Source: Candidatus Uhrbacteria bacterium (GTDB lineage: Bacteria > Patescibacteriota > Patescibacteriia > UBA9934). Taken from it: a DNA stretch of 34,394 nt. Position numbers and translations under genes: made by a program. The first letter of the stretch is position 1, and the number at the start of each line of letters is the position of its first letter. Below are positions 23,817-26,722 of the stretch, in pieces. A model generated the notes under the pieces. The model saw nothing but the letters and a program-made list of their open reading frames with translations, did not search any database and was not told where the DNA came from. Location of the stretch: the NCBI GenBank assembly GCA_943350635.1, contig CALRAI010000010.1, positions 1 to 34,394 of the forward strand, read 5' to 3'.

Positions 23817-24719
23817 TTACGCTCTCCGAGCACGATACTTCTCCCACTCCACAAGCAATGGACTTGCAACGAAAATGGAAGAATACGCTCCGGAAAGCAT
23901 TCCAATAATAAGCGCAAGAACAAACGGACGTGTAGTAGCGCCACCAACCACGAATACAGCAATAAGTGGAAGGAACGTTGCAAACGTGGTGTTCAAGGAT
24001 CGAGCAAGCGTTTCCATAACACTCGTATTCACAATATCTCCAAATGATATATCGCCGTGACGACGACGGAGAAGATTCTCGCGAGTTCTATCAAGAACCA
24101 CAATAGTGTCATTAATGGAATACCCTAAAATCGTTAACGCTGCAGCAACAAACGCCAAGTCCACTTGGTATCCCAACGTATGACCAAGAAGCGCAAAGAC
24201 GCCCAAGGGAATAATCACATCGTGAAATGCCGCAACCATCGTAACCACACCGTACTTCCAAGAAGCTACCGGACGAGTTACCTTCCGAAACGCCCATGCC
24301 ACATAAACCATAATCAGTACCAACATAAGTCCCGTCGCTTTCAACGATGCACTCTTCAATTCTCCACCAATCACCGGACCAACCGTGTCGAAACGAATTT
24401 CTGTCGCAGTAGATGATACCGACTGTATTGCTGCAAGAATCGTCTGATGCTCCGCCTCGGTTACTGGCGCAAGACGAACAAAGTACGTATCACCCTCACC
24501 TTGTTGAACCACAGGCTCAAAACCTGAGTTCGTAACAACATCACGCAGCGCTTCCACTGTTGTTGCAGGTGCTTGAATCTGCAACAAACTTCCACCGGTG
24601 AAATCGATACCGAAATTCAGACCATACGTAAAGAGCGATACAAAAGCCAAGGTAACAATCGCAGCAGAAACTCCTAACCAAAGCTTCGAATGACCGATGA
24701 TGTTCAATGAGGATTTCAT
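23817..24719 (-). CDS. secF: Protein translocase subunit SecF
   Basis: LNFGIDFTGGSLLQI, ILGYSINDTIVVLDRTREN motifs; directly downstream of secD. Confidence 0.97.
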   Translation of the reverse strand: MKSSLNIIGHSKLWLGVSAAIVTLAFVSLFTYGLNFGIDFTGGSLLQIQAPATTVEALRDVVTNSGFEPVVQQGEGDTYFVRLAPVTEAEHQTILAAIQSVSSTATEIRFDTVGPVIGGELKSASLKATGLMLVLIMVYVAWAFRKVTRPVASWKYGVVTMVAAFHDVIIPLGVFALLGHTLGYQVDLAFVAAALTILGYSINDTIVVLDRTRENLLRRRHGDISFGDIVNTSVMETLARSLNTTFATFLPLIAVFVVGGATTRPFVLALIIGMLSGAYSSIFVASPLLVEWEKYRARRA

Positions 24720-24724
24720 AGAAT

Positions 24725-26722
24725 TTAGAGGCCAAGAAAGAAGATTTTCTTTCGCAGTATCGGCACACGAGCTAAACGACGAAGAACAAAGCGTGATACG
24801 ACGAATGCACAGAATAAGGATACGAGCACACCGATTGACAATGTAAGTGCAAAGCCCCGAATCGAACCTGAAGTCATTGTGTACAAAATCATTGTTGCAA
24901 TGAGCGTTGTAGCATTTCCGTCACGAATCGATGGCCATGCACGACGGAAAGCTTCCTCCATCGCTGTAGGAACATCTCGGCCATTCCGAAGCTCCTCCTT
25001 TAATCGCTCAAAGATAAGCACATTTGCATCTACCGCAATACCCAGCGAGAAAATGAATCCCGCAATTCCAGAAAGGGTAATAGTCACTCCAAGAACCTTA
25101 AAGAGCATAAGGTTGATCAAGACATACACACCCAATGCACCAACAGCAACCACACCAGGCAACCGATAATACAAAACCATGAAAATCGCCACAAGCAAGA
25201 AACCAACTAATCCCGCCTTCACACTTAAATCAAGTGAAGCTGATCCCAACGCCGGACCAATGGTTTGCTGACTCACCACACTGATCGGTACTGGCAATGC
25301 TCCAGCATTTAATCGCTGAACCAAGAGTTTTGCTTCAGAAATCGTGAAGTTTCCCGTAATCGATGCTTCGCCACCATAAATCGGCTCCTGTACTACCGGA
25401 GTAGTAATAGGCTGACCATCCAAGAAAATACCGATAACTTTTCCGACGTTCTCCTTGGTAAGATCACCAAACAATCGTGTTCCCTCCTCATTGAATTGCA
25501 ACAATATATATGGAGCACCAGTGTTCTGATCGAACGCTACCGTTGCATTCTTTACATCTTTTCCGGAAAGCTCCGTATTCTTCCAAGGATCCACAACTAA
25601 CACATCAGACGCCGTCGTCCATGGCATTTCGATATGCGCAATTTCATACGTTCGTGATGGACGGGAACCAACACGATAGAGAATATGATATCCGAATTCT
25701 GTTTCAATAACTTCTGAAATCTTTGTATCACGATTGCTATACGCTGCATCCTCAAACGCCTGCACCATCATACCGCGAGCAACATATCCCAAATCTCCAC
25801 CGGCATCCTTGCTTCCACCGTCGTCGGAATTTGTTTTTGCAAGATCCGCAAAGTTCTTTGTTGTCGCTTCAGCCATTAATTGATTGATAAACGCTAATGC
25901 CTCCTCCTTTGTACGAGACTGAGTACAGCTTGTCGCGCCGGCGTAACAAATCAAGATGTGAGAAATCCGTGGCTCAGATTCCGTTTTCTTACTGATATAT
26001 TTCACCACGTGCATCCGGCTCGTGCCCTCGTATAATCCATTGACGATACCAAATCGTGTACGATTCTTTTCAAGTTGAGTGATAAGTCCGTCGTATTCCT
26101 TATCATCCGCCGCAACAAATCCAATGTATCCTTCAGAATCTTTCGTGGCGGCATCAATAGAATATTCCTTTACAAGTGCAGAAAAATCTTCTCCAGCAAG
26201 TGCTTTATTCATCACCACAAGCGCGTCTGCACGTTCTTGAGTTTGTGCGTCAGTAATTTGCTGTTGCTGTTCTGGCGTTGGTGTTGTGCTCACGTCAGTA
26301 ATTGGTGTTCGAAATGCCAAAACCGGCGTTTCACCAATCTGTGCAATAGCGTCCTTCACATCAGTAACTCCTGGCAAATCCACCAATACACGATAATGCC
26401 CATCGGCAATATTCGTTTGTACAATTGGTTCAGCAACACCAAACGCGTTCACACGTCGCTCTATCACATCACGAACGCCTTCGAGTGCTGCAGTACGTTC
26501 AGCGTCATCGATCGACGTCATGTCCGCCTCATACACCAAGTGCGCACCACCCTTCAGGTCGAGTCCAAGCGTAAAATCGTTTTCCGGTACGTATGGCAAG
26601 TGGAAGCCCGTCTTATCCTTCATTGCAACCATTGCGCTGTTCCATTCCTTTGGAAACGAGAGAATTCCCGCACCAACCGCAAAGAGAACAAGGAAAAAAG
26701 CACCGATAGCAGTACGATTCAT
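24725..26722 (-). CDS. secD: Protein translocase subunit SecD with embedded parvulin-like PPIase domains
   Basis: FTLGLDLKGGAHLVYE, VVQEPIYGGEASITGNFTISEAKLLVQRLNAGALPVPI, GIAVDANVLIFERLKEELRNG. Insertion at about aa 142-372 containing ISHILICYAG...GGDLGYVARGMMVQAFEDAAY...VIETEFGYHILYRV. Confidence 0.96.
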   Translation of the reverse strand: MNRTAIGAFFLVLFAVGAGILSFPKEWNSAMVAMKDKTGFHLPYVPENDFTLGLDLKGGAHLVYEADMTSIDDAERTAALEGVRDVIERRVNAFGVAEPIVQTNIADGHYRVLVDLPGVTDVKDAIAQIGETPVLAFRTPITDVSTTPTPEQQQQITDAQTQERADALVVMNKALAGEDFSALVKEYSIDAATKDSEGYIGFVAADDKEYDGLITQLEKNRTRFGIVNGLYEGTSRMHVVKYISKKTESEPRISHILICYAGATSCTQSRTKEEALAFINQLMAEATTKNFADLAKTNSDDGGSKDAGGDLGYVARGMMVQAFEDAAYSNRDTKISEVIETEFGYHILYRVGSRPSRTYEIAHIEMPWTTASDVLVVDPWKNTELSGKDVKNATVAFDQNTGAPYILLQFNEEGTRLFGDLTKENVGKVIGIFLDGQPITTPVVQEPIYGGEASITGNFTISEAKLLVQRLNAGALPVPISVVSQQTIGPALGSASLDLSVKAGLVGFLLVAIFMVLYYRLPGVVAVGALGVYVLINLMLFKVLGVTITLSGIAGFIFSLGIAVDANVLIFERLKEELRNGRDVPTAMEEAFRRAWPSIRDGNATTLIATMILYTMTSGSIRGFALTLSIGVLVSLFCAFVVSRFVLRRLARVPILRKKIFFLGL

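Follow-up and report, generated by a model that had tools for sequence, protein, structure and literature searches.

In E. coli, SecD and the prolyl isomerase foldases are separate proteins. SecD is a subunit of the protein-export motor and stimulates protein export using the proton-motive force; in the SecDF structures its P1 region lies on the outer side of the membrane, close to the exit of the translocon, and P1 of SecDF is believed to bind chains as they emerge and to swing with the proton cycle. A standing question about bacterial secretion is whether chaperones work through SecDF at the translocon. Among the foldases, SurA has two parvulin domains, the first regarded as inactive and the second as active. 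SurA binds the holo-translocon, and for the E. coli protein AlphaFold places the two parvulin domains on the P1 head of SecDF (PMC9987972). PpiD contacts the periplasmic domain of SecD (PMC9643414). Here, we analyzed a 34,394-nt stretch of DNA (the window) from a Candidatus Uhrbacteria bacterium, in which a parvulin module is built into SecD itself. This organism belongs to the Patescibacteria, which are tiny, mostly uncultured bacteria. No published description of SecD and a parvulin as one protein was found in the open-licence PMC papers that we searched, and the architecture is apparently undescribed in that literature.

Identity of the module in SecD

The features of the locus, in window coordinates, are as follows:
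23817..24719, minus strand: secF, 300 aa, the next gene downstream of secD (PF02355, PF07549)
24725..26722, minus strand: secD, 665 aa, with the inserted parvulin module (ORF, Pfam, TIGR01129)
25289..25582, minus strand: SecDF P1 head (aa 381-478), directly after the module (PF22599)
25622..25657, minus strand: trailing strand YEIAHIEMPWTT (aa 356-367) (strand comparison, insert model)
25667..25972, minus strand: parvulin copy 2 (aa 251-352), all active-site residues present (Pfam, phmmer, Foldseek, alignment)
25985..26275, minus strand: parvulin copy 1 (aa ~150-246), degenerate (Pfam, alignment)
26306..26479, minus strand: SecD P1 N-terminal subdomain (aa 82-139) (PF21760, SecD_1st)

The secD frame has no internal stop over its 665 aa, and its TIGR01129 score of 374.7 bits against a cut-off of 244.4 places the product in the SecD family. 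The domain order is that of a SecD, with the P1 N-terminal subdomain, the P1 head and an RND-type membrane domain (Pfam SecD_SecF_C, aa 480-643), and secF, in which Pfam finds no insertion, adjoins on the same strand. Comparison of the junction with unfused SecDs shows that the strand LAFR closes the P1 N-terminal subdomain and that the module was inserted after it. The first-pass annotation had put some 230 extra residues in P1; we found an insertion of ~240 aa between the N-terminal subdomain and the head. By analogy with the topology of SecDF, the module is predicted to lie beyond the outer face of the membrane, close to where the translocon opens. The top Foldseek matches of the full-length SecD model were the SecDF crystal structures (3aqp, 5yhf), with SurA lower down; since the pTM of this model is only 0.45, it does not establish where the module sits relative to the membrane and the P1 head.

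Profile searches and structure prediction agree on what the insert is. Rotamase_3 (PF13616) matched it in two stretches (E 1.8e-33, best stretch 239-348, 115.9 against a curated cut-off of 22.5), as did Rotamase (PF00639; E 1.5e-26, 93.6 against 21.7), and in the genome-wide profile scan each copy scored above the curated cut-off separately (25673-25960, E 4e-21; 26054-26260, E 1.2e-5). With phmmer, both copies aligned to SurA 163-364, and the PPIase domain of PrsA (6xd8) was matched with E 1.4e-15. The insert modeled alone by AlphaFold reached a mean pLDDT of 94.2 and a pTM of 0.78, and Foldseek returned SurA first, followed by Pin1, PrsA and SurA domain II. The single-domain matches (Pin1, PrsA and SurA domains) had TM-scores by target length of 0.80-0.86 with rmsd 1.6-2.8 Å, SurA domain II giving 0.86 with rmsd 2.2. 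In the model, the insert takes the parvulin fold. The embedded parvulin module, two copies in tandem, that had been read from the letters was thereby recovered by Pfam, AlphaFold and Foldseek at the coordinates given for it (aa 251-352, 25667..25972; aa 160-246, 25985..26245), and because Pfam and Foldseek both identify a parvulin, neither an absence of rotamase matches nor an unrelated fold was found.

The two copies differ in their active sites. Copy 2 carries H255, D301, L311, M319, F323 and H346 at all six parvulin positions, corresponding in that order to H59, C113 (here as D), L122, M130, F134 and H157 of Pin1. Residues 251-352 are thus a rotamase domain, as proposed, on both the Pfam score and the active site, and the residues make copy 2 a predicted catalyst of prolyl cis/trans isomerization. 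Copy 1, for which the annotation's description of the preceding ~85 residues as a second, degenerate parvulin is apt, fails most of the active-site positions (two His, Cys/Asp, Leu, Met, Phe): it has no preceding beta-1 strand and no first active-site His, the F134-equivalent is Leu and the M130-equivalent is lost, with His238 retained.

Distribution, loss and conservation

A search of SecD homologues across Patescibacteria, a check that the first-pass annotation had suggested, found the module in every one of the family's 23 genomes. A SecD match exists in 70 of the 73 genomes of the order, and 68 of these 70 carry the insertion (62 full-length fused, 6 split over contigs yet reaching into the insert, 2 without it); in the class, each of the 20 other genera sampled has one or two copies. 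Several Patescibacteria groups beyond the class have it too, among them forms of ~1050 aa in which SecF is also fused and forms of ~810 aa. Among the matches listed in the collection-wide scan, fused forms were seen solely in Patescibacteria, with named records from Falkowbacteria, Uhrbacteria, Magasanikbacteria, Moraniibacteriota and Gracilibacteria. The architecture is therefore non-standard, as had been claimed, against E. coli or Thermus, but within the class it is the normal one. The architecture is real and conserved, and the evidence for the identity of the module is strong.

Unfused Patescibacteria SecDs mostly have 5-32 residues between the P1 strand and the head; in two, non-parvulin stretches of 95 and 123 residues occupy the insertion point. 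In two SecDs of genus g34, in the same order (L081, L082), the module is gone and a 50-aa linker stands in its place with both flanks intact. The g34 branch falls within the fused SecDs with strong support in the SecD tree; this genus has lost the module. The SecD tree requires three state changes, and strongly supported branches force two of these. A single gain followed by losses would fit this pattern but is not proven by it, and the parvulin-domain tree is built on too few columns to tell single from multiple origins. Two further variants were observed: SecD and SecF are joined in one protein of ~1030-1110 aa, parvulin module included, in L061-L070 and L108, and the SecD frame of L036 (G023, same order) has one in-frame TAG, which may be a sequencing error, a pseudogene or readthrough.

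We surveyed the active site in the last copy of 82 SecDs. The acid at the C113 position is kept in 78, the Phe134-equivalent in 80 and the His157-equivalent in 78; the His59-equivalent is kept in 69, and 10 of the 13 SecDs without it are single-copy forms aligned minus the strand that bears it. Two single-copy members (L041, L058) have no second His. Tandem members retain copy 1, although nearly all of them have lost most of its catalytic positions.

Strand order in single-copy and tandem modules

Single-copy SecD parvulins start at the first helix, without the first strand and its catalytic His; that strand (ARHILI, ASHILIK) sits after the last strand (FGYHII), and in none of the unfused SecDs inspected was it found. 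A circular permutation of this kind is natural because the first and last parvulin strands neighbor each other in the fold. When scored with a profile built from 74 parvulin segments of other bacteria, among the matches listed in the collection scan, eight of ten single-copy cases gained 2.7-9.9 bits from moving the strand to the front, and in those eight at most 1 of 100 shuffles of the moved piece scored equally well; the other two (L041, L058) are degenerate domains. Stand-alone Patescibacteria parvulins fall into two classes, canonical and apparently permuted. The canonical ones (L183-L186, L192, L193, L196) gain 13-22 bits from the front strand and almost nothing from permutation, whereas twelve others (L187-L191, L194, L195, L197-L201), PrsA-like foldases with the first strand ASHILIK after the last strand, gain almost nothing from the front strand and most of them 4-13 bits when the trailing strand is moved; for nine of these, 0 of 200 shuffles were as good. 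Judged from these sequence comparisons, a circularly permuted parvulin appears to be widespread in Patescibacteria, in single-copy SecDs and in many stand-alone foldases. The single-copy SecD parvulins cluster with the permuted stand-alone forms in the parvulin-domain tree, with weak support. We found no prior description of a circularly permuted parvulin in the open-licence PMC papers searched; if confirmed, it would add a new topology to an enzyme fold that has been studied in depth.

In the tandem SecD of the window, the trailing strand YEIAHIEMPWTT matches, by position, the beta-1 strand that closes the permuted parvulin of the single-copy relatives. Along the chain, body 1 is followed by last strand 1, first strand 2, body 2, last strand 2 and the trailing strand. 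Both AlphaFold models, of the insert and of full-length SecD, have unbroken strands at aa 236-258 and 344-367, and the paired strand ends sum to 603 and 602, as a single antiparallel ribbon would give. From the strand boundaries, not the coordinates, of the models, the first and last strands of copy 2 would pair with each other, and the trailing strand with copy 1. Moving the trailing strand ahead of copy 1 did not raise the score above shuffles in most tandem members, so that the nested arrangement in these members is derived from the structure model only. We tentatively consider, as possible though doubtful, a nested pair in which a canonical active parvulin sits within the hairpin of a circularly permuted one, both held by one antiparallel ribbon of ~23-residue strands leading to the P1 head, so that the proton-driven P1 cycle would move the foldase. 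If this were true, the module would be a foldase whose engagement with substrates is powered by the membrane potential.

Proposed function and relation to known systems

We consider it likely that the module is a translocon-tethered foldase or holdase for emerging chains, of the SurA/PrsA type, taken up into the P1 loop of SecD. On this proposal, the SecD of essentially the whole class would have acquired the module at the outer face of the membrane, and because SecDF P1 is thought to bind chains and swing, every chain that exits SecYEG should come into contact with the module. It would isomerize prolyl bonds and hold the emerging chain, thereby helping folding and preventing back-sliding, with copy 1 probably serving as a non-catalytic peptide-binding platform. 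Several points count against this reading. The low pTM of the full-length model leaves the placement of the module unestablished, chaperones of this kind can do without their PPIase activity, and the importance of the parvulin domain of PpiD has been questioned (PMC9643414). In addition, the same genome has further exported PPIase candidates. One is a 297-aa protein (L002:985-1878) whose N terminus has a hydrophobic stretch and whose divergent parvulin domain lacks both active-site His; the other is a cyclophilin with a lipoprotein-like signal (lipobox). Together they rule out that SecD is the only exported PPIase of this genome, and the suggestion that it replaces a separate PrsA, SurA or PpiD finds no support in this genome. 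Replacement may hold in some relatives, since SecD bears the sole PF00639 match in 8 of 20 other class genomes, one of which (G274) also has no cyclophilin match.

The general view of SurA and PpiD as chiefly chaperones speaks for a module that acts as a peptide clamp, a ratchet or holdase adding grip to the proton-driven movement of P1, with isomerization incidental. Chaperone binding as a ratchet has been proposed (PMC9987972). The retention of copy 1 despite the loss of most of its catalytic positions fits a clamp as well. However, divergent SecDs very frequently keep the two His, the acid and the Phe/Met of copy 2, beyond what a bare clamp should need, and we consider this explanation rather unlikely. 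The conservation of the active site in most members also weighs against a mainly structural role, in which a part that happened to be made from a parvulin serves as a spacer or as a surface where SecF, YidC, SecY or a cell-wall partner docks: a spacer would need no complete catalytic site, and such a role is improbable even though genus g34 lives with a linker instead of the module and L041 and L058 dispense with the second His. An accidental joining of a separate parvulin gene to secD, by assembly or gene calling, has nothing in its favor beyond the unusual architecture; the same uninterrupted ORF, with SecD sequence on both sides, recurs in the family's 23 independent genomes and throughout the class, which rules out an artefact or frameshift for practical purposes.

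The tethered foldase or holdase that we favor can be set beside four described systems. SecDF of Thermus thermophilus and E. coli (3aqp, 5yhf) shares the P1 N-terminal subdomain, the P1 head, the RND-type membrane domain and the adjoining secF, but has no parvulin between the P1 N-terminal strand and the head. PrsA of Gram-positive bacteria is likewise an extracytoplasmic parvulin foldase for secreted proteins, with a PPIase domain close in sequence and fold; it is a lipoprotein outside SecDF and has the canonical strand order, in contrast to the single-copy SecD parvulins. PpiD-YfgM is also a membrane-tethered parvulin that acts with SecYEG and SecD/F, but is encoded separately with its own membrane anchor and chaperone domains. 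SurA, the best Foldseek match of the insert, has the same tandem of a poorer first and a complete second parvulin; it is a separate soluble protein with an N-terminal chaperone domain, whereas here the parvulin pair is part of SecD. Pfam did not find the SurA N-terminal domain in this SecD, which scores 50.4 with NF008038 (SurA) against a cut-off of 394 and so lies outside the SurA family.

Outside Patescibacteria, a parvulin gene follows secD-secF on two Chlorobiaceae contigs (L124, L180), and in the one examined (L124:2885-7218) the gene, which adjoins secF on its downstream side, is surA-like and encodes two parvulin repeats. A fusion was considered there and rejected, as Pfam finds no rotamase in these SecDs and the parvulin gene is separate. 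The predicted docking of SurA, the PpiD-SecD contact and this surA-like neighbor are independent links between parvulins and SecDF, and a covalent SecD-parvulin therefore fits a tethered foldase or holdase. The fusion joins two machines, SecD and a prolyl isomerase, where exported proteins emerge, and suggests that the reduced-genome Patescibacteria made a foldase a fixed part of the export machine; the proposed SecDF-foldase contact becomes directly testable within one polypeptide. Because the SurA parvulins are predicted to dock on the P1 head in E. coli, this class-wide fusion, in which a SurA-like parvulin pair is covalently tied to that same head, is their natural covalent counterpart.
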